From assembly GCA_030916925.1 (NCBI GenBank), contig JAUPVU010000104.1, positions 1-13,756 on the forward strand: DNA of 13,756 nt, given 5' to 3'. Shown piece by piece: positions 2,757 to 13,756 of the stretch. The notes under the pieces are model-generated. The model did not search any database. It worked only from the letters and a program-made list of their open reading frames with translations, and was not told where the DNA came from. The translations under genes were made by a program, and so were the position numbers. Position 1 is the first letter of the stretch; every line of letters starts with the position of its first letter. Origin of the DNA: Patescibacteria group bacterium. GTDB taxonomy: Bacteria; Patescibacteriota; WWE3; 2-01-FULL-39-13.

Positions 2757-2787
2757 GAATACCGGGTGAAAACATCACCCGGTATTC
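2757..2787 (+). terminator. Strong hairpin after the GT2-GH26 pair, probable terminator
   Basis: A perfect 13-bp inverted repeat (GAATACCGGGTGA at 2757-2769, TCACCCGGTATTC at 2775-2787) with a 5-nt AAACA loop starts 9 nt after the GH26 stop codon. No T-run follows directly, only a pyrimidine-rich stretch with TTTT at 2794, so it may be an imperfect intrinsic terminator or a 3'-end stabiliser. It separates the polysaccharide cassette from the rplK promoter. Confidence 0.65.
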
Positions 2788-2803: not shown

Positions 2804-2831
2804 TTTACTTTTTCTAAATATCAGATATAAT
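2804..2831 (+). promoter_or_regulatory. Predicted sigma-70-type promoter for the rplK-rplA unit
   Basis: TTTACT at 2804-2809 (4 of 6 to the -35 consensus), a 16-nt spacer and a perfect TATAAT at 2826-2831. Transcription would begin near A2838, giving a leader of about 148 nt before the rplK ATG at 2986. The position between the upstream hairpin and the structured leader supports the call. The start site is predicted from spacing only. Confidence 0.55.
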
Positions 2832-2837
2832 TGTCTT

Positions 2838-2931
2838 ACCTGTGATTTCATAGGGAGGCTAACGCCGAAGCTTGTACAATCTAAAGTAAGATTGTTTATT
2901 CGTTTCGTACCCTTCTTATTCACAGCGGTAG
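2838..2931 (+). promoter_or_regulatory. Structured rplK leader resembling the L1 binding site of 23S rRNA
   Basis: Visible elements: AUAGGGAGGCU at 2850-2860, GGC-UAAC-GCC hairpin at 2857-2866, GCCGA at 2864-2868, a 7-bp hairpin ACAAUCU/AGAUUGU (2876-2882 with 2889-2895), and UACCCUU at 2908-2914 able to pair with AGGG at 2852-2855. From memory, E. coli 23S helices 76-77, bound by L1, read AUAGGUGGGAGGCU, then GCCGA, then UACCACCCUU. The same order of a GGG/CCC stem, a single A, a GGC/GCC stem and a 3' asymmetric loop beginning GA is present here. L1 is known to repress its own operon through an mRNA copy of its rRNA site. In addition, 2838-2845 can pair with 2920-2929, closing the leader and occupying the 5' arm of the downstream terminator. 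The mimicry is an inference from sequence and has not been tested by folding or alignment. Confidence 0.5.
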
Positions 2932-2954
2932 TTTTCAAACTACCCGTTTTTTTT
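2926..2954 (+). terminator. Intrinsic terminator inside the rplK leader (attenuator)
   Basis: The stem GGTAGTT (2927-2933) pairs with AACTACC (2938-2944) around the loop TTCA, followed by CG and eight T at 2947-2954. This is a standard Rho-independent terminator, yet it lies downstream of the predicted promoter and ends 31 nt before the rplK start, so it must be bypassed for expression. That is the layout of a transcription attenuator. The alternative is that it ends a separate small RNA of about 115 nt. Confidence 0.72.
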
Positions 2955-2985
2955 GCAAAACATTTTATTTCAACTTTTTATATTT

Positions 2986-3408
2986 ATGGCAAAAGTAGTT
3001 AAAACACAAATCAAATTAAATTTACCAGCAGGTGAAGCAACACCAGCACCTCCAGTTGGACCAGCTCTTGGACAACACGGTATTCCTATTATGGAGTTTA
3101 TTAAAGAATATAATGCTCGAACAGCAGACAAAAAAGGTAATGTTATTCCTGCTGTTATTACAGTTTACGAAGATCGAAGTTTTACATTTGTAACTAAACT
3201 TCCTCCAGTTTCTGCAATGATAAAAAAAGTACTTGGTCTTAAGGTAGCTTCCGGGAAACCAAATACTGAAAAAGTTGGAAAGCTTAAACTAGCTCAAATC
3301 GAAACTATTGCTAAAGAAAAAATGGAAGATTTAAATGCTAACGATATAGAAGCAGCAATGCAAATTGTACGCGGAACTGCCCGCTCAATGGGAGTAGAAA
3401 CAGAATAA
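2986..3408 (+). CDS. rplK: Large ribosomal subunit protein uL11
   Basis: Component of the GTPase-associated centre of the large subunit, binding 23S helices 43-44 with the L10-L12 stalk. The 140-aa protein has the usual length (about 141). It opens with [16 protein letters not shown], carries the proline-rich [13 protein letters not shown] segment near residues 21-33, and ends with the RNA-binding C-terminal domain including GTARSMG near 131-137. The ATG at 2986 is chosen because MAKVVK is the family's normal N-terminus; a longer reading from TTG 2953 would begin inside the terminator T-run. No Shine-Dalgarno is visible (the upstream bases are T/A only). Next is rplA after 19 nt, the classic L11-L1 pair, but secE/nusG are not upstream and rplJ/rplL are not downstream. 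Confidence 0.97.
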
Positions 3409-3427: not shown

Positions 3428-4207
3428 ATGGGAAAAATCAGAACACGTTTTATCGGTATAGAAGAAATTGAAAAACAACAAAAAGAAGATCAAAAGAAAC
3501 GTTCTTCAGAAAAAAAAGTTGAAAAAGGTGAAGAAGAAAATCAAAATCAAGAAGTAAAAGTTGAAACTTCTAACAAAAAATCTAAGAAAAAAGATAAAAA
3601 ACTCAATGTTCACGTTCGTGGTAAAAAATATCAAGAAGCTCTTAAAAAAATTGATGAAAAAAAAGAATATCAACTACAAGAAGCTGTTGAAACTCTTAAA
3701 AAAATTACTTTTGCAAAATTTGAAGAATCCGTAGAACTACATATTAATGTACTTAATGAAGGTTTACGCGGAGAAATTGAACTCCCTCACTCTACTGGTA
3801 AAACAGTACGAGTTGCAATTGTAAGTGATACATTACTTGAAACTATTGACAAAGGAATTATTGATTTCGATATTTTAATAGCACACCCTTCTTTTATGCC
3901 AAAACTTGCTAAATATGCAAAAACATTAGGTCCAAAAGGACTTATGCCAAACCCTAAAGCAGGTACAATTAGTCCAAATCCAGAAGAAGCAGCAAAAAAA
4001 TTTGAAAAAGGTATGCTTCGTTGGAAATCAGAATCTAAATTCCCTATTGTTCATCAACTCATTGGTAAACTGCCACATGAAACAAATGCTTTAGTAGAAA
4101 ATGCCACTGCATTTTTAAACTCTGTAGGTAGAAAAAATATAAAAAATGCATTTATCAAATCTACAATGAGTCCTTCTCTTAAACTTAATTTAGAGAATAT
4201 TGGATAA
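3428..4207 (+). CDS. rplA: Large ribosomal subunit protein uL1 with Lys-rich N-terminal extension
   Basis: Binds 23S helices 76-78 to form the L1 stalk that handles exiting tRNA, and in known bacteria represses its own operon. The 259-aa protein has an unusual hydrophilic Lys/Glu-rich extension (about residues 1-60). The core starts near VRGKKYQEALKKID (63-76). Family segments are clear: AKFEESVELHINV (96-108), LPHSTGKTVRVAIV (119-132), LGPKGLMPNPKAGT (167-180). Domain II looks shortened: between PHSTGK and DFDILIAHP the stretch that normally contains the AGAD element is about 18 residues shorter than in typical L1. The RNA-binding Thr-Met-Gly triad near the C-terminus reads T246-M247-S248, with Ser for Gly. 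No Shine-Dalgarno is seen. The identification is firm; the functional effect of these changes is unknown. Confidence 0.95.
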   Translation: MGKIRTRFIGIEEIEKQQKEDQKKRSSEKKVEKGEEENQNQEVKVETSNKKSKKKDKKLNVHVRGKKYQEALKKIDEKKEYQLQEAVETLKKITFAKFEESVELHINVLNEGLRGEIELPHSTGKTVRVAIVSDTLLETIDKGIIDFDILIAHPSFMPKLAKYAKTLGPKGLMPNPKAGTISPNPEEAAKKFEKGMLRWKSESKFPIVHQLIGKLPHETNALVENATAFLNSVGRKNIKNAFIKSTMSPSLKLNLENIG

Positions 4208-5972: not shown

Positions 5973-6584
5973 ATGATAGAAGTAATACAAAGATTTAAAT
6001 ATCCAGTAGAAATTATTCTTATATTTCTTTCTATTTCTATTACATGTATTACTTTTTTTCTTTATTCCAAAGAAACAGAAACAGTACATCTTGCTAACTT
6101 AGAAGCTACCGATGTGGAAACTATTCAAAAAGAAACAATTACTATAGATCTTGCTGGTGCTGTTGAAAAACCTAATGTATATACTATTCCATCCAATACA
6201 ACACTTCATGAGGTTATTAGCATGGCTGGTGGCCTTTCTAAAGATGCGGCTCACGATTATATCAGTCGTACATTTAATATGGCTACTACTCTTTCTGATA
6301 AAGAAAAAATATATATTCCTTTTAAAGAAGAAATTGAACAAGGTTTAATTGATCAAAATGTTCAAATACTTTCTGAAACAACAACTACAGAAACTGCAAA
6401 TTCATCCGGGATATCGATTAATACTGCTTCTGAAAGTGAGCTGGATTCTTTGCCTGGTGTGGGGCCAATAACAGCTAAAAAAATAGCTGATAATCGACCT
6501 TATGAGTCTATAGAAGAACTTATTTCTAAAAAAGCTGTTAATTCTACAACTTTCGAAAAAATTAAAGAACTAATTTCACTTTAG
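5973..6584 (+). CDS. comEA: ComEA competence DNA receptor (SLBB + helix-hairpin-helix)
   Basis: Binds incoming double-stranded DNA at the outer face of the membrane and passes it to the ComEC channel during natural transformation. The 203-aa protein has the standard ComEA order: an N-terminal membrane anchor (about 12-31), an SLBB domain (about 57-117, with DLAGAVEKPNVYTIP at 59-73 and AGGLSKDA at 85-92), a Thr/Ser-rich linker (about 133-146), and a C-terminal helix-hairpin-helix DNA-binding domain (148-203) with INTASESELDSLPGVG (149-164) followed by AKKIADNR. Length and order match Gram-positive-type ComEA. The ATG at 5973 has no Shine-Dalgarno but directly precedes the anchor. The comEC gene follows after 1 nt, so the two are very likely one transcription unit. 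Confidence 0.95.
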   Translation: MIEVIQRFKYPVEIILIFLSISITCITFFLYSKETETVHLANLEATDVETIQKETITIDLAGAVEKPNVYTIPSNTTLHEVISMAGGLSKDAAHDYISRTFNMATTLSDKEKIYIPFKEEIEQGLIDQNVQILSETTTTETANSSGISINTASESELDSLPGVGPITAKKIADNRPYESIEELISKKAVNSTTFEKIKELISL

Positions 6585-6585
6585 T

Positions 6586-7383
6586 ATGGATCAATTTACT
6601 TCACTTATAAATTCATACCTTCCAGAACCTCATGCTTCTTTATTGAACGGAATTGTTCTTGGAATAGATCTGCAGACTACATATAGTTTTAAAGATAAAT
6701 TAAAAGATGTTGGTCTTATTCATATTGTTGTTTTATCTGGTATGAATATAACATTACTATCTGCAGTAATACTACAAATAATTATTCCGTTGTTTGGAAG
6801 AAAAGCAGCTACTATTATTACTATCGTGAGCATTATATTCTTTATTTACTTTGTTGGTATTGACCCTCCAATTGTTCGCGCTGGTATTATGGGGATACTT
6901 TCTTTAATTGGACTTATGTTTGGCAGAAAAACACTTGCTTTATATACATTATTTCTAACTTCTATTATATGTATTATTATTTGGCCAGATTGGCTGACAA
7001 GTATTTCGTTTCAGCTTTCTTTTGCAGCAACTTTTGGGATAATACTATTTGGCAATGTTGTTTCTGAAGAAAAAACAACAAACACAATAAAAAATTACCT
7101 CATTGATGAACTTCGTGTTTCACTTTCCGCACAATTATTTACTACGCCCATTATTTTCTTTTATTTTAGACAGATATCATTTATTTCTCCTATTGCCAAT
7201 ATTCTTGTTTCTTGGACTATTGCTCCAATTATGATTTATGGCATTATTGCGATGGTTGTAGGAAGTATTCATTGGCAGTTAGGCTTTGTTGTTTCTTGGC
7301 TTTGTTACGGCCTGGTAACTTTTATTATTTTAGTTGTAGAGTGGCTTTCTCAAATTCCTTTTGCCTCTGTAAAAATACTTTAG
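6586..7383 (+). CDS. comEC: Minimal ComEC/Rec2 DNA uptake channel (Competence domain only)
   Basis: Inner-membrane channel that carries single-stranded DNA into the cell. Only 265 aa, against roughly 700-800 for typical ComEC. What is present is the Competence-domain core: GLIHIVVLSGMNITLL (43-58, the 'SG' signature), GIDPPIVRAGIMG (91-103), SISFQLSFAATFG (139-151), about seven membrane segments, and an end at VEWLSQIPFASVKIL where this domain normally ends. The N-terminal OB-like DUF4131 region and the C-terminal metallo-beta-lactamase-like domain are both absent. The gene is intact, with no frameshift seen, and starts 1 nt after comEA. It abuts the opposite-strand LamG gene with no spacer, so the missing C-terminal domain is not encoded directly downstream. 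Whether the protein works alone or with a nuclease encoded elsewhere is unknown. Confidence 0.9.
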   Translation: MDQFTSLINSYLPEPHASLLNGIVLGIDLQTTYSFKDKLKDVGLIHIVVLSGMNITLLSAVILQIIIPLFGRKAATIITIVSIIFFIYFVGIDPPIVRAGIMGILSLIGLMFGRKTLALYTLFLTSIICIIIWPDWLTSISFQLSFAATFGIILFGNVVSEEKTTNTIKNYLIDELRVSLSAQLFTTPIIFFYFRQISFISPIANILVSWTIAPIMIYGIIAMVVGSIHWQLGFVVSWLCYGLVTFIILVVEWLSQIPFASVKIL

Positions 7384-10300
7384 TTATTGAAATCTTACAG
7401 CTCCAAGTGCCTTATCTGTTTTAACTTGTGCTGCAGTAAGGGCATAGTTATATATTTTGATTTCATCTATTTGGCCAGCATAATAATTTGAACCTTGCTT
7501 TGCAATCTCCAGTCCACCAGAATTTGTCGTTGTAGTATTAGTTGTATCAGTAGTAGTGCCGTCAAGTTTACCATCGATATACAACGACAATGTACTGCCG
7601 TTTTTGGTAAAAACAATGTGATGCCAGTCGTCATCCATATAAGATTGACGAGAAACAATTACTGGATTATTTGTTTGGTCATAACGGGCAACACGGATTT
7701 TTTCATCACTATCCCAACGAATAGAATAAGGATAACCAGTTGCACCACCTGGCCATTTTTCTATAACAGCATCGAATGAACCACTCATTCCAGCAGCAGG
7801 TGTTGTAAACCATATAGATACACTAAAATCCTGACTATAGTTAAAATCTATTTTATCGTCATCTGCTATTGTAATATAGTCGTCTACACCATCAAAATTT
7901 AAACTACCATTAAACTTACCAGTTGTACCATTATTCCATGCTTGAGTTCCAGTACCCGAAGAACATGTGCCTGTTGAAGTTTGAGTTCCTGATCCTCCAA
8001 TGGTTATAGTTCCATTCATGCCAACAACTTGTCCATTTGCATTCTTAGCAGCATTATATGCAGTACTACCTGTACATTCATCAAGACGATACCATGCAAT
8101 TGGTTTGCCTTGATTATATTCCCATGCAATTTGAGGAAGAGTACGGGCATAGTTATAAATCCTTACTTCATCTAATTTTCCAGCAAAGTTTGAATCAGGC
8201 GTTTCTGAATTATTATTCAATCCACCAATAGCCGTCCTATTTATACTTGCAGAAAATGTTCGAGAGGTAGTATCACTTGCCTGTAAGATACCATCTACAT
8301 ATATTTTCCTATCTGTTGCTGATGAAAATACTGCCACTACATGATGCCAACTATTATCATTATAAGTATTTGTTGTAGTAGCATCGGAAGCATTACCACT
8401 TTCTACAGATCTTGCGTATAATTGTCCTGAAAACATACGAATCCCCTGAAAATTATTAGTACTATTGCTACTTCCAAGCGTCATAAGATATGAACTAGCA
8501 CTTGATGACGTTTGAAACCAACCTGACATAGTAAAAGGATAAGCCGTCACAACTGCACTTGATATCTGTACATCATCATCCACACCATCAAAATTGAGTG
8601 CTTCCCCTTTTTTTCCCGCAACCCAACTTTGTGTCATTGTGGAATCAAGTGATCCGACATATCCATTTCCGCTAGTATCATTTGCCGTATTACCTATCCC
8701 TTCATTCAAAAGCCACTCACCACTAGGGGCACTACATGAGGAAGAATCGCCTGGGACACAATAACTTCTACCTGCAGAATTGTCCGGAAGCGTTCCACCT
8801 AGCCCAGTTGAACCCGCTCCAAGAACCAGAGCTTTCCCTTGGTTATATTCTACTTTTACCTGATCAGCAGTAAGAGCCAAATCGTATATTTTAATTTCAT
8901 CAATTTGACCTTTAAATTTTCTGTCTGCACTGGTGGTACTTCCACCTATTTGCATAGTGCCGGCATCAAGAGTGTTATCAGAAGGAGCAGTACCTATTAA
9001 TTGGCCGTCAATATATAAATATTGAATAGCATTGCTGTTGGTTAATACAACATGATGCCATTGATCATCATTATAAGTATCGGTAGAAGTAACAGCATCA
9101 CCTGCAACAGATCCCCATCGTGTAATAATTTTTCCATGATCTGCATGACCATCTCTAATCATAGAAAGATGCAAATACTCGCCCTGCTGTACTAAAGGTC
9201 TAATATTAGAACCAGACCCAGAGGACTGAGTACTACCCTTAACCCAAACAGAAATACTGCCATCTCCGGTTGCTTTAGTATATGTTGTATTAACATAATC
9301 ACTTGTTCCATCAAAACTAAGAGCTTTGCCAAACTTACCATCATTTGTCCAAGTTGGCGCGGAATTTCCCGTTCCAAATGTACCATTTAACGTAGAACCA
9401 GCATTGCCAACATTGTTTATTGTTGTTCCATAACCTTCATCTAATCGATAGTGGACAATTGCAGATCCAATTGGTGAACCTGGTGCAGGATGCCCTGCAT
9501 TCATATCCTGCACGATTTGAGCCTGTGTACGAGCATAATTGTAAACCTTTGCCTCATCGAGAGCTCCATCTAAATAATACAAAGGTGAACCATTATTATA
9601 AGATGCACCCAAGCTAAATTGCTCAGCAATATTAGATATTACTGTTGGAGTAGTCGCGCTCGTGGTAGTGATAGCTTGGGGAATACCATCAATATAAATT
9701 GACCCGCTATTCCCACCATTCCATACTCCGGCTACATGGTACCAGCGATTTGTTGTTAAATTAGAGGAGGTAGTATTTATCGCATAATAACCCACACCTA
9801 CTGTATTTACTCCAAACTGAATTTCATCCGTTCCACCATCATTAACGAGAAAAAATGTTCGTTCAACACCACCATTCCAATCTCCCCATTTTCTCATAAT
9901 TGTCTGCGATGATCCAAAATTCACCCGATCAAACCGTACCCATGACATAAAAGTTGCAGCCCCCACGCCATCGAAGGTAGTAATATCACCAGTAGTAATA
10001 TAATCACCACCATCAAACTCAAGTCCACTACCATATTTACCTTGTAGCCATACTGGAGTAGCATTTCCTGAGGCTAAACTTGCAGTATTCCCCACCCCTG
10101 AGCTATCAACAGCAAAACTTCCACTACCATCATCCATTTTCCAGTATCCAACTGGCCCTGGAGCCCAAGAATAAAGCATTTTTACTTCTGAAGGATCAAG
10201 TGCTTGATTATATATACGAACTTCATCAATAAGCCCAACAAATTGACGTGCTCCAGTTTCCTGTCTACCAATTTCCCAGTTCTTAGAACCATAATAAAGT

Positions 10301-11688
10301 GTATCGTTATGGGCTTCTTCTTTTCTTAAAACTCCATCCACATATAAGCGCACATATTTTCTATCATAGGTGGCTACAACATTATGCCATATATCATCTA
10401 TTATGCTTAATGTGTCATCTACTGTAACACTTGTGCCAGTTTCTCCATCGGTAGTAAACTGAAAAGTTACATTGTTACTATTTAATGTTAGTCTGGGTCC
10501 TCTTTTACCTGTATCTGCTTGCCATTTAGATACTATGTCAGTAGCTCCAGTACTTGTTTTAATCCACGCGCTAATAGTGATATTTGTAGGTTCTAAGATT
10601 GGAGGTGTGCCCATACTTATATAGTCTCCATTCCCATCGAAAAAACCAGCATTCCCAAATTTTCCTACAGCAGTAGAACCAACAGTTACATTACCTGCGC
10701 CTGTTCCACTATTATTATTTCCCGATGAATCTATTGCCGTCCAGTTACTACCACTTACTCCAATTTCATCCATTTTCCAATAACCTACTAACCCATCAGA
10801 TAAATAGCCTTGATCTTCTTGACCAAGTACTGCAGATAATCCTGCTGAACCTCCTGCATAATCTGATTTTATTTGCGATGCAGAACGAGCATAGTTATAC
10901 ACTTTTATTTCATCCATCTTCCCACTATAAGCTTCTGAAGTAAGACCAGCTACATGAGGTAACCCGATTTTTACAGGATATAAAGAATTCTGTGTTGAAC
11001 ATGTTAAGGTTCCACTATTATCTAGTTTTCCATTAATATAAATAAGGCCATTTGTTCCAGAAGTACCACCCATATATACTGCCGTAATATGTGTCCATCT
11101 TCCTACTGATACTGCTGTATTGGCACTTACAGTACACGTTGTTGATCCATCATGGTTGCCAAAGGTCAATAACCCAGTTTCCCTATAATCAACTATCCAA
11201 CTCGCATTCCCTGCTCCACCACCACCCCACTGATTTACAAGGGTAAAAATTTTCCCGCTGGAAGGCAAACGATTTGGACTCATCCATAAACTAATAGTAT
11301 ATTCTGTAAAATTAAAATCAGCATCATCCGCTACATTAACATAATCATTAGTACCGTCAAAATAAAGACATTTTTCATTTATACATTGATCATCTGTCTT
11401 CCACGTTGGTGCAGAATTTCCTGATCCAAAACTACCAATATTTGTTCCAACTGCGTCATTAACAGTGGATCCTACCCCTTCATTAAACTTCCAATATGCA
11501 ACTGGATCTGCACCGGATGCTTGTAAAAAAATTCCTTTTATTGTTACAAATTTCCAATAACCAATGCCAATAAGTAAAAAAGTAAGAACACAAATAGCCC
11601 AGGTTCTAAAAGAAAGTTTAGAACTAAACCAGTTTTTGAAGTTAAATTTATTTTGAAAAAAATGGGAAAGTCTAGTAGTTCCTAGCAT
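7384..11688 (-). CDS. Giant surface protein with six LamG (concanavalin-A-like) domains
   Basis: Predicted cell-surface adhesin or glycan-binding protein, 1434 aa. A basic N-terminus (K14, K18, K24, R28) precedes one hydrophobic segment (about 30-50), so it is a signal-anchor or atypical signal peptide with the bulk outside. Six LamG_3-type jellyrolls follow at about 63-277, 300-507, 512-730, 744-950, 990-1194 and 1197-1427. Each shows the same order: (A/G)YWKFNEG-like opening, KFG-A--FDG--DY, W-HHV, IYIDG, and closing (Q/K)(I/L)DE(I/V)(K/R)(I/V)YNYA. Domains 4 and 5 are joined by a linker with SYCVPGDSSSC (975-985). Domain 6 has C1204 and C1242. The protein ends in GAVRFQ. No catalytic motif is seen, so binding is likelier than hydrolysis. 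The ATG at 11688 is chosen because the membrane segment follows; no Shine-Dalgarno is visible. The ligand is unknown. Confidence 0.9.
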   Translation of the reverse strand: MLGTTRLSHFFQNKFNFKNWFSSKLSFRTWAICVLTFLLIGIGYWKFVTIKGIFLQASGADPVAYWKFNEGVGSTVNDAVGTNIGSFGSGNSAPTWKTDDQCINEKCLYFDGTNDYVNVADDADFNFTEYTISLWMSPNRLPSSGKIFTLVNQWGGGGAGNASWIVDYRETGLLTFGNHDGSTTCTVSANTAVSVGRWTHITAVYMGGTSGTNGLIYINGKLDNSGTLTCSTQNSLYPVKIGLPHVAGLTSEAYSGKMDEIKVYNYARSASQIKSDYAGGSAGLSAVLGQEDQGYLSDGLVGYWKMDEIGVSGSNWTAIDSSGNNNSGTGAGNVTVGSTAVGKFGNAGFFDGNGDYISMGTPPILEPTNITISAWIKTSTGATDIVSKWQADTGKRGPRLTLNSNNVTFQFTTDGETGTSVTVDDTLSIIDDIWHNVVATYDRKYVRLYVDGVLRKEEAHNDTLYYGSKNWEIGRQETGARQFVGLIDEVRIYNQALDPSEVKMLYSWAPGPVGYWKMDDGSGSFAVDSSGVGNTASLASGNATPVWLQGKYGSGLEFDGGDYITTGDITTFDGVGAATFMSWVRFDRVNFGSSQTIMRKWGDWNGGVERTFFLVNDGGTDEIQFGVNTVGVGYYAINTTSSNLTTNRWYHVAGVWNGGNSGSIYIDGIPQAITTTSATTPTVISNIAEQFSLGASYNNGSPLYYLDGALDEAKVYNYARTQAQIVQDMNAGHPAPGSPIGSAIVHYRLDEGYGTTINNVGNAGSTLNGTFGTGNSAPTWTNDGKFGKALSFDGTSDYVNTTYTKATGDGSISVWVKGSTQSSGSGSNIRPLVQQGEYLHLSMIRDGHADHGKIITRWGSVAGDAVTSTDTYNDDQWHHVVLTNSNAIQYLYIDGQLIGTAPSDNTLDAGTMQIGGSTTSADRKFKGQIDEIKIYDLALTADQVKVEYNQGKALVLGAGSTGLGGTLPDNSAGRSYCVPGDSSSCSAPSGEWLLNEGIGNTANDTSGNGYVGSLDSTMTQSWVAGKKGEALNFDGVDDDVQISSAVVTAYPFTMSGWFQTSSSASSYLMTLGSSNSTNNFQGIRMFSGQLYARSVESGNASDATTTNTYNDNSWHHVVAVFSSATDRKIYVDGILQASDTTSRTFSASINRTAIGGLNNNSETPDSNFAGKLDEVRIYNYARTLPQIAWEYNQGKPIAWYRLDECTGSTAYNAAKNANGQVVGMNGTITIGGSGTQTSTGTCSSGTGTQAWNNGTTGKFNGSLNFDGVDDYITIADDDKIDFNYSQDFSVSIWFTTPAAGMSGSFDAVIEKWPGGATGYPYSIRWDSDEKIRVARYDQTNNPVIVSRQSYMDDDWHHIVFTKNGSTLSLYIDGKLDGTTTDTTNTTTTNSGGLEIAKQGSNYYAGQIDEIKIYNYALTAAQVKTDKALGAVRFQ
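8096..8133. repeat. Module-boundary repeat, copy in the first LamG gene
   Basis: These 38 bases match 12448-12485 in the neighbouring LamG gene with about three differences. They encode the junction IAWEYNQGKPIA between the last two LamG domains. Higher identity here than in the domain bodies suggests shared ancestry of the C-terminal domain pair, or conversion at module borders. Confidence 0.6.
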
Positions 11689-11735
11689 ATCATAACTATA
11701 CTAATTTTCGAGGTAAGTTTAAAGCAGAAAAATAA

Positions 11736-13756
11736 TTATTCAAACCTTACTGCTCCTCCATTATTGTAAAGAAGCATACGTTGTTCTTTAGTAAGAACAT
11801 AATTAAAAAACTGCAATTCATCTAGCTGGCCATCAAACTGTTCATTACCTACATACAATGCACCAATGACAACATTGTTATTCCCATCATTATATGCACT
11901 TTGTGAATTATAACCAGCTGTTATCTGGCTTTTTGTAGCATCTGTATAACAATATTTTCTATTATTAACAGCGTCAAACATAGCAGTAACCATATACCAT
12001 TGACCTGTAACGATATCACTCCCTGGACTACAAGCAATTGCTGAACTACTTGTTCCATCTGAGCTCATATAAAATTCAAAACGATCAGTTGTAGCATTGT
12101 ATCTAAGATACCAACTTCTATCTGAAGCTCCCCATTTACCTAAAAGGCTCATAAATGCATCTCTATCTACCTTTGCCCACATGTTTATACTAAAATTATT
12201 GTCGCCAAAATCAAATAAGGAAGAAGATCCAATATCAATATAGTCATCTGAGCCATCAAAACTAAAACTTGATCCAAACTTTCCCACAGCCCCGTTTGCC
12301 CATGCACCAGATGTAGTACATGTTCCTGCAGTGGTGACTCCACTTGAACCAAGACTAATCGAACCATCTGATCCAGTTGATTTGTTATTCCCATTTCGAG
12401 CTGAATTATATACTGTTGTACCTGTACAGTCATTCATGTCGTAATACGCAACTGGTTTGCCTCGATTATATTCCCAAGCAATTTGTGCAGGTGAACGCAA
12501 GTAATCATACATACGAACTTCGTCTATTAATCCATCTACTGTTTCATTTGCAACTGCATTGTTACCAATTCCAAAAAAATTAGATGCATCAGACCCATAC
12601 GCTGAATCAGCATTAGTATCCAATGTCAACGCAACTAATTTACCATTAATATAAAATGAAGGATCGTTAGATACTGCATCATCATTATAAAGCACAACGA
12701 CATGATTCCATTGATTTAAATTCAAGGCGCAGTCTGCTCTCCACTGTGATTGTGTTCCGGCTGTTGGAGTTCTCATTTGAAAATCTATACGAGTACTATC
12801 ACAACTTTGTGGTTGTAAAAACCACCCTGTACTATTTGATGATTTGTTTAAAAAATGACCATTCGCCTCACCAGTACTTGCAGGTTTAACCCAAAAACTA
12901 ACACTACCACCTCCATCAAAAATATTACTAATGGATGTTCCTGTTCCGGCAATAATAGCATCATTCTGATCTAATCCGCTCGCTCCATCAAAAAATACTG
13001 CCTTACCAAATTTACCGATTTTCCATAATGGACCATTAGTAAGCGTTCCCGTATTTTCGTTATTGCTTGTATCAAAACTACTTGTTCCTGTCCCTTCATC
13101 AAATTTCCATTCCGCAACAGGTTCAGAACATGTAGTAGTATCTCCTGGTACACAATATTCACGACTGGCAGAATTAGAAGGAGAAGTTCCACCTACTCCT
13201 GTTGAAGATGAACCAAGTATAAAAGATTTACCCGCATTGTAATCTACTTTGACCTCATCTTCTGTAAGTGCAAACGGATAAATCTTGACTTCATCAATAC
13301 TACCTCTAAAATAATGATCACCACCGTATGCGTAACCTATACCTGTAAAATCCATTGTACTTGCTAATGTATATGGACCATATTGAGTACCGTTAAGATA
13401 CATATAAATAGTCCCGCTACTGTAAGTAACGACAGCATGATTCCACTGATCTCGATCTACAGCTGGTCCACCTACATAACTTAAGTCGCTCCCTCTAAAT
13501 TGCAGCAAATTTGTAGTAGATCTAAATAAAATACCTTCACCATTAGTCCCTTTTTCTCCTAAAAAGAAAGACCAATCGGAATCTCCTGGTTCTTCTTTAA
13601 GCCATAAAGATGCACTCCAGCTATCACTTGTTCCATAAGATAAGTTTCCTGGTAGAGTTACATAATCATCTGTACCATCAAACTGTAACGCTTTTCCAAA
13701 TTTACCGATTTTCCATAATGGACCATTAGTAAGCGTTCCCGTATTTTCGTTATTGC
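11736..13756 (-). CDS. LamG-repeat surface protein, 5' end beyond the window (partial)
   Basis: The reading frame stays open to the right edge, so the true start is outside; 672 residues are visible. The TTG at 13506-13508 is internal, because the preceding 82 codons read as a normal LamG start (LWKIGKFGKALQFDGTDDYV). Three LamG domains are visible at about residues 1-171, 213-427 and 435-662. The first and second are joined by a linker with EYCVPGDTTTC, as in the neighbouring gene. The third carries the paired Cys of DCTGTT and GTCTT. Each domain closes in DEVKIY, DEVRMYDY or DELQFFNY. The protein ends in GAVRFE. Its stop lies 47 nt before the ATG of the downstream LamG gene, so the two may be co-transcribed. 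It is probably a paralogue of that gene, with the same domain order at the C-terminus; the N-terminal anchor is not visible. Confidence 0.88.
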   Translation of the reverse strand, partial: NNENTGTLTNGPLWKIGKFGKALQFDGTDDYVTLPGNLSYGTSDSWSASLWLKEEPGDSDWSFFLGEKGTNGEGILFRSTTNLLQFRGSDLSYVGGPAVDRDQWNHAVVTYSSGTIYMYLNGTQYGPYTLASTMDFTGIGYAYGGDHYFRGSIDEVKIYPFALTEDEVKVDYNAGKSFILGSSSTGVGGTSPSNSASREYCVPGDTTTCSEPVAEWKFDEGTGTSSFDTSNNENTGTLTNGPLWKIGKFGKAVFFDGASGLDQNDAIIAGTGTSISNIFDGGGSVSFWVKPASTGEANGHFLNKSSNSTGWFLQPQSCDSTRIDFQMRTPTAGTQSQWRADCALNLNQWNHVVVLYNDDAVSNDPSFYINGKLVALTLDTNADSAYGSDASNFFGIGNNAVANETVDGLIDEVRMYDYLRSPAQIAWEYNRGKPVAYYDMNDCTGTTVYNSARNGNNKSTGSDGSISLGSSGVTTAGTCTTSGAWANGAVGKFGSSFSFDGSDDYIDIGSSSLFDFGDNNFSINMWAKVDRDAFMSLLGKWGASDRSWYLRYNATTDRFEFYMSSDGTSSSAIACSPGSDIVTGQWYMVTAMFDAVNNRKYCYTDATKSQITAGYNSQSAYNDGNNNVVIGALYVGNEQFDGQLDELQFFNYVLTKEQRMLLYNNGGAVRFE
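12448..12485. repeat. Module-boundary repeat, copy in the second LamG gene
   Basis: Partner of 8096-8133, about 35 of 38 bases identical, encoding IAWEYNRGKPVA at the junction before the last LamG domain. Confidence 0.6.
13006..13066. repeat. 61-bp exact direct repeat, copy 1 (inside second LamG gene)
   Basis: Identical over 61 bases to 13696-13756, offset 690 bp, which is exactly 230 codons, so the frame is kept. It encodes NNENTGTLTNGPLWKIGKFG at the start of a LamG domain. On one side the match ends at 13005/13695; the other copy reaches the window edge, so the repeat may be longer. Confidence 0.95.
13696..13756. repeat. 61-bp exact direct repeat, copy 2 (at window edge)
   Basis: Second copy of the repeat at 13006-13066. 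Base-perfect identity between modules whose other parts have diverged points to recent duplication or gene conversion between LamG modules. Confidence 0.95.

Follow-up and report, generated by a model that had tools for sequence, protein, structure and literature searches.

The rplK-rplA Locus

The window, i.e. the whole stretch of 13,756 nt that was analyzed, carries the genes of the ribosomal proteins uL11 and uL1, with the score of the latter lying over the Pfam cut-off and under that of the best-matching NCBIfam model. Both genes are preceded by a promoter-like site, a leader and a terminator-like hairpin (Table 1). The strong hairpin farther upstream, which has no T run directly 3' of the stem, is probably the 3' end of the upstream transcript, as judged from its letters and place. 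Downstream of the ribosomal protein operon are comEA-like and comEC-like competence genes (5973-7383; NCBIfam and Pfam) and, in the region 7384-13508, two long repetitive open frames on the minus strand (7384-11688 and 11736-13508), which we take to resemble several copies of a LamG-like domain.

Table 1. Features at the rplK-rplA locus of the window, with examples of predicted operators from other loci (handle:positions)
Feature	Position	Strand	Basis or remark
Strong hairpin ACCGGGTGA..TCACCCGGT	2761-2783	+	3' of upstream glycosidase-like gene; sequence
Promoter-like site, TTTACT (2804-2809), 16-nt spacer, TATAAT (2826-2831)	2804-2831	+	10/12 match
5' leader (148 nt with the expected start at 2838)	2838-2985	+	34% GC
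Long irregular hairpin closed by CUGUGA (2840-2845) and UCACAG (2920-2925)	2840-2925	+	Predicted fold
L1-site-like letters AUAGGGAGGC (2850-2859), GCCGA (2864-2868), UACCCUU (2908-2914)	2850-2914	+	Sequence
Hairpin ACAAUCU/AGAUUGU	2876-2895	+	Inside the strand whose length is 6-9 nt in rplA operators and, for most 23S sites of the class, 12 nt
Intrinsic-terminator-like hairpin GGUAGUU-UUCA-AACUACC, CG, U8	2927-2954	+	Stem 2927-2933/2938-2944, T8 2947-2954
rplK, ribosomal protein uL11	2986-3408	+	NCBIfam and Pfam
rplA, ribosomal protein uL1	3428-4207	+	NCBIfam and Pfam
Predicted rplA operators, examples	L122:872-914, L110:31-74, L055:1450-1495, L061:1338-1383		GUGGGAG or GCGGGAG, hairpin, G...ACCAC or ACCGC

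The comparison with relatives drew on 379 genomes of the phylum, mostly of 0.4 to 1.5 Mb, among which rplK was matched in 362 and read in a part; the resulting 161 loci represent 155 genomes, with L041, L045, L048, L050, L068, and L168 fetched twice and with L011, where the contig ends at rplK, left out. The genus consists of the window's genome alone, the family of 5, the order of 7, and the class of 45 genomes; a matching rplK is present in 38 of the latter, and 31 of the 37 relatives with rplK were read. In 29 of these 31 class loci the end of nusG is recognized before rplK (the exceptions being L011, at its contig end, and L028), as is nusG in 122 of the 161 phylum loci. The rplK of the window does not follow nusG, unlike the class norm, and the operon has therefore probably moved; in that position rplK needs a promoter of its own. 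No counterpart of the window's leader was seen in the 31 class loci.

Domain I of the window's uL1 keeps the KFEES and TMSPS stretches in an alignment of 14 proteins, where the statement on TMSPS, which is also found in Thermotoga L1 (3qoy), comes from the comparison with PDB relatives. The domain looks ordinary and could in principle bind RNA. Domain II is shortened, and the protein carries a lysine/glutamate-rich N-terminal extension of approximately 60 residues (3428-3615), which is absent from the bacterial PDB relatives compared; the alignments begin at about residue 64 with the bacterial structures and at residue 34 with the chloroplast L1 4v61.

The Leader and Its Terminator-like Hairpin

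The first-pass annotation had described a promoter, a structured leader, and an intrinsic terminator whose eight T stop 31 nt short of the ATG of rplK. All of these letters are found where it had placed them. Promoter-like matches over the whole window occur at chance level (53 versus 56.8 expected), and the scan's criteria yield no such site between 2955 and 2985, the 31 nt directly before rplK. From the position of the promoter-like letters, transcription is expected to start near 2838. The region 2838-2926 folds at -27.4 kcal/mol, with a z-score of -4.1 against dinucleotide shuffles, none of 200 being as good, which bears out the description of the leader as structured. In the minimum-energy fold AUAGGGAGG (2850-2858) is paired with CCUUCUUAU (2911-2919). 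A leader peptide was considered and set aside, as the 148 nt contain no ATG.

The terminator-like hairpin reaches pair probabilities of 0.73-1.0 in all five transcript ends that extend far enough to include it, and its stability is only about -7 kcal/mol. When the leader is shuffled, a run of at least seven T behind an equally stable hairpin arises in 23 of 5000 cases. Over the whole window terminator-like matches are not above chance (4 versus 6.8 expected), and leader terminators in the rplK loci of the phylum, 6 of 161 versus 1-6 in shuffles, are hardly above it. Within this genome a terminator-like hairpin is present at 4 of 97 gene ends versus 0 when shuffled, and among the six leader matches listed for the 97 genes the rplK leader hairpin alone has eight T; a hairpin with T8 is rare in this genome. 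As a feature of the sequence, then, a terminator-like hairpin lies between the promoter-like site and the first gene of the operon. Alternative folds that would switch it, as in attenuators of the L10 and L20 type (the L4 type does without them), were not predicted, and the terminator hairpin forms regardless of the upstream fold. An antiterminator made of UUACC and the 5' arm of the terminator was rejected: a start at 2838 leaves only ACC of it, and the partition function does not favor the pairing.

The first-pass annotation had also pointed to the missing Shine-Dalgarno sequence before rplK. It is absent as noted; its absence is, however, normal for this genome, in which a Shine-Dalgarno-like motif precedes 11 of 97 genes, taken from 20 of its 110 contigs and the window, versus 7 of 97 in a control stretch. 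In a genome so poor in these motifs, an operator that acts by blocking them is not the default expectation.

Recognizable L1 Sites in Other Genomes

The L1 mRNA sites called recognizable here, which were identified by structure and place and not by laboratory assay, have in common a helix P1 of 4 bp, which in most cases is GUGG/CCAC, a bulged GA, a hairpin P2 that covaries, and a short G...A strand; in the E. coli site P1 has 3 bp, GGG/CCC. In the Intestinimonas order, the succession GUGG, GA, hairpin, G...A, CCAC is found by letter pattern in 24 of the 29 readable rplK leaders, and a stricter structural descriptor matches 19 of the 29. These rplK operators are often followed by T-rich sequence, with a mean of 4.8 T in 10 over 25 loci, a value that stands without a control.

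In the phylum of the window, predicted L1 operators are located between rplK and rplA in 27 of the 161 loci (26 of 155 genomes; 0-1 in shuffles), versus none before rplK, with the match in L027 probably being due to chance. Their P1 has 4-6 bp, with GUGG in 22 and GCGG in 4, and their 3' strand has 6-9 nt; an SD-like motif lies within 14 nt in 10 of the 27. These predicted operators at rplA represent the more solid by-product of the survey. One of them, L062:1375-1428 (from the same genome as L168), is followed by ACATTTTTT, so that the hairpin of the operator could double as a terminator there.

The L1 site of 23S rRNA in the class was found by descriptor in 18 of 20 loci (L205-L224), with a P1 of 5-6 bp, which reads GGAGG/CCUCY in most, GGUGG/CCACY in L212 and L217, and GAGGG/CCCUC in L210, and with a strand of 12 nt in 17 of the 18 sites. 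A search for the 23S gene of the window's own genome did not find it. Neither at rplK nor at rplA did the class loci that were read show a convincing L1 operator.

Three models of the site were built. The first, R1, was derived from six sites of the Intestinimonas order and also found sites in the phylum of the window, mostly between rplK and rplA; as it did not find the E. coli site at E 1, it was too narrow, which is why R2 and R3 were built. R2 rests on the alignment A5 of 50 matches, about three of them probably due to chance, in which P2 covaries in many rows and the four P1 pairs are kept in 50 of 50, a constancy that is partly by construction, the rows having been found with a model that has such a P1. 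Among 27 sources, R2 gives the highest rank to the rplK leader of E. coli, which had been held out, with only 15.2 bits (E 0.04); just under it are two 14.8-bit matches, in L020 and L021, presumably due to chance. R2 recovers few of the class 23S sites. For R3, 26 genomes of the class had a 23S match, 20 of these loci were fetched, and 8 of them went into the model. It finds all five of the class 23S sites held out from it, with 37.6-44.8 bits, whereas the rplK-rplA loci of the class yield no convincing match.

Resemblance of the Leader to L1 Sites

The leader had been said to resemble helices 76-77 of 23S rRNA, to which L1 binds, and the three groups of letters are indeed present and in the rRNA order; the GGC/GCC and GGG/CCC stems that would make up the likeness, in contrast, have a pair probability of only about 0.06-0.07 in the free fold. 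An alternative L1-like fold, in which a third stem accompanies AGGG/CCCU and GGC/GCC, lies 1.4 kcal/mol above the minimum. The exact three-part letter pattern arises in 0 of 20000 shuffles of the leader, and a relaxed order, GGGAG-hairpin-G..ACC, in 6 of 20000, where the relaxed pattern allows a gap of 50 nt and was picked after seeing the window so as to include it.

Compared with the uL1 operators known from E. coli, Firmicutes, and archaea, the leader is alike in its operon and in the order of GGGAG, hairpin, G, and ACC, and its site precedes rplK as in Proteobacteria. It differs, however, in P1, which in recognizable sites comprises 3-4 bp or more and ends in GG/CC by the bulge: in the canonical register the window offers GG/CC alone, followed by A.C and U.U, and a fold held in that register reaches -20.4 kcal/mol, 7 kcal/mol worse than the minimum. 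The GA bulge is present with the 2-bp P1, and the 4-bp register AGGG/CCCU leaves only an A; P2 directly follows GA as GGC UAAC GCC. The third strand has the G...A and, instead of being short, a length of 43 nt with a hairpin of its own. Further differences are the terminator-like hairpin that comes after the site and the distance of approximately 70 nt to the start codon.

The structural descriptor of P1, GA, P2, and short strand matches none of the 161 rplK upstream regions, that of the window included (0-1 in shuffles), and a looser one, GGGA-hairpin-TACCC, matches 2 of 161, the same as shuffles (1-3). None of the models scored the site in the leader: R1 gave no match, R2 none on the plus strand and one minus-strand fragment of 3.1 bits over the terminator stem, and R3 none over 1.6 kb with filters off and E to 10. 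As R1, R2, and R3 charge for a long insertion, these results argue against a canonical site and leave room for a distorted one.

The pattern GGGAGGC..GCCGA..TACCC, with a gap of 4-34 that puts the window itself (gap 39) outside it, has 5 matches in the 379 phylum genomes, all inside long open frames, versus 6 in a backward control. Over the genome contig collection, ATAGGGAGGC..GCCGA..TACCCTT has one match, in an Intestinimonas MAG before rpmG-secE-nusG-rplK, where equal-base arithmetic expects about a dozen and the window's own record was possibly excluded. This rpmG leader was considered as a second L1 attenuator and rejected: the relatives nearest to it, L176 and L177, lack TACCC, the recognizable L1 site there sits before rplK, and its [AG]GGGAGGC is an element kept in 15 of 19 rpmG-secE-nusG leaders of the Intestinimonas order (L175-L204; e.g., L176, L182, and L199). 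The element follows T-rich sequence close to where the transcript is expected to start and is apparently not an L1 site.

Models of Premature Termination

Taken together, the letters reported by the first-pass annotation were right, a leader with a terminator is likely, and an L1 site in it is doubtful. The best explanation, to which we would give about the same chance of being right as of being wrong, is that the leader serves premature termination in an rplK-rplA operon that has been relocated. In this model the free-standing operon, displaced from its usual place behind nusG, would be driven by the promoter near 2804-2831; the leader of about 148 nt would fold into one long irregular hairpin followed by the intrinsic terminator 31 nt before rplK; and some transcripts would stop at approximately 2954 while the remainder would read through, which amounts to a transcription attenuator. 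What was obtained directly for this model are the letters, the predicted folds, the gene order, and the rarity of the hairpin with T8; from these we infer the start near 2838, the RNA end at 2954, and a regulation of the terminated fraction.

The model is favored by the fold of the leader (z -4.1), the rarity of a hairpin with such a T run in shuffles, the lack of a promoter-like site in 2955-2985, the need of the operon for its own promoter, the leader being devoid of ATG, the scarcity of Shine-Dalgarno motifs in the genome, and the precedents of ribosomal protein attenuators for L4, L10, and L20, as given in the accessible part of PMC10931766. It is disfavored by the failure of the search to find a relative with the leader, the near-chance counts of terminators in the phylum and in the window, the modest stability of the hairpin, and the lack of a predicted antiterminator. 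The last point implies that a protein regulator, if any, would favor termination from the neighboring hairpin and would not act by a two-way refolding; since the terminator hairpin forms whatever the upstream sequence does, such a regulator would have to make termination more or less efficient from a position next to it.

The same independence from the upstream fold, seen in each tested transcript end that holds the hairpin, would also suit an unregulated, leaky constitutive terminator that sets a fixed low level of rplK-rplA, and the presence of another hairpin upstream of the promoter fits with that as well. The strong upstream fold would then need some other reason, however, and with the promoter lying between two hairpins, insulation alone leaves the second of them unexplained; we consider this reading rather improbable.

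As for the regulator in the premature-termination model, L1 would be the first choice and a possible ligand, with the chances being against it. In this special case uL1 would bind a degenerate copy of its rRNA site and raise termination at 2954. The rarity of the letter order in shuffles and the small energy cost of the mimic fold with AGGG/CCCU speak for it, as do the encoding in this very operon of a uL1 with KFEES and TMSPS in domain I and the wide distribution of L1 control of rplK-rplA, described as translational in PMC10931766. Against it speak the failure of the descriptor and of all three models on the leader, the shuffle-level result of the looser descriptor, and the occurrence of the three-part letters in an Intestinimonas rpmG leader whose operon has its recognizable L1 site elsewhere, before rplK. 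The L1-linked premature termination proposed in the first-pass annotation is thus reasonable in that termination may be the control point, whereas its link to L1 is weak, most of the tests for membership among L1 sites having failed, and we regard it as unlikely. A historical version, unlikely to a like degree, would have the operon acquire a new leader after its departure from behind secE-nusG, in which the L1 site of 23S rRNA is present as a drifted copy with a hairpin inserted in one strand, so that uL1 would end the transcription of its own operon.

A separate small RNA gene of approximately 117 nt (2838-2954), with rplK transcribed from another start, would account for the promoter-like site, the compact fold, and the terminator-like hairpin as one complete unit with its own promoter and terminator; against it, an Rfam search of the window gave no match up to E 1 and the 31 nt before rplK hold no promoter-like site by the scan's criteria, and we hold it to be quite unlikely. 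A classical translational L1 operator, known in other bacteria (PMC10931766) and recognizable at rplA in this phylum, is very improbable here, as about 70 nt, including the terminator-like hairpin, would separate the end of the site from the ATG, whereas in 22 of the 27 rplA operators an ATG follows within 40 nt, and this is seen where a Shine-Dalgarno sequence is lacking as well.

Relation to Known Systems and Implications

The premature-termination leader may be compared with ribosomal protein attenuators described elsewhere. In the E. coli S10 leader, L4 stabilizes a paused complex at the attenuator hairpin, according to the accessible part of PMC10931766, and leader elements adjoin an intrinsic terminator there, as the predicted ones do in the window; the operon and the protein are different ones. 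The B. subtilis rplJL and infC attenuators, which respond to L10(L12)4 and L20, respectively, share with the window a ribosomal protein operon with a leader terminator (PMC10931766); in them, alternative structures switch the terminator, in contrast to the window, for which none are predicted. No L1 transcription attenuator was found in the literature, including the accessible part of PMC10931766 and a partial coverage of subscription papers. PMC12083536, in its accessible part, treats the E. coli L11-L1 operon in general and contains no L1 attenuator, and the accessible part of PMC7247131 mentions neither rplK nor a terminator.

No literature was found on the control of ribosomal protein genes in the small-genome bacteria of this phylum, and the subject seems little studied. 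The survey places the recognizable L1 operators of the phylum between rplK and rplA, mostly near the rplA start codon, with and without Shine-Dalgarno sequences. If the leader described here is a working attenuator, it would represent a case of an rplK-rplA operon that is controlled at transcription; and if uL1 were indeed its ligand, L1 control would act through attenuation and not at the level of translation, in a bacterium where Shine-Dalgarno sites are hardly used.
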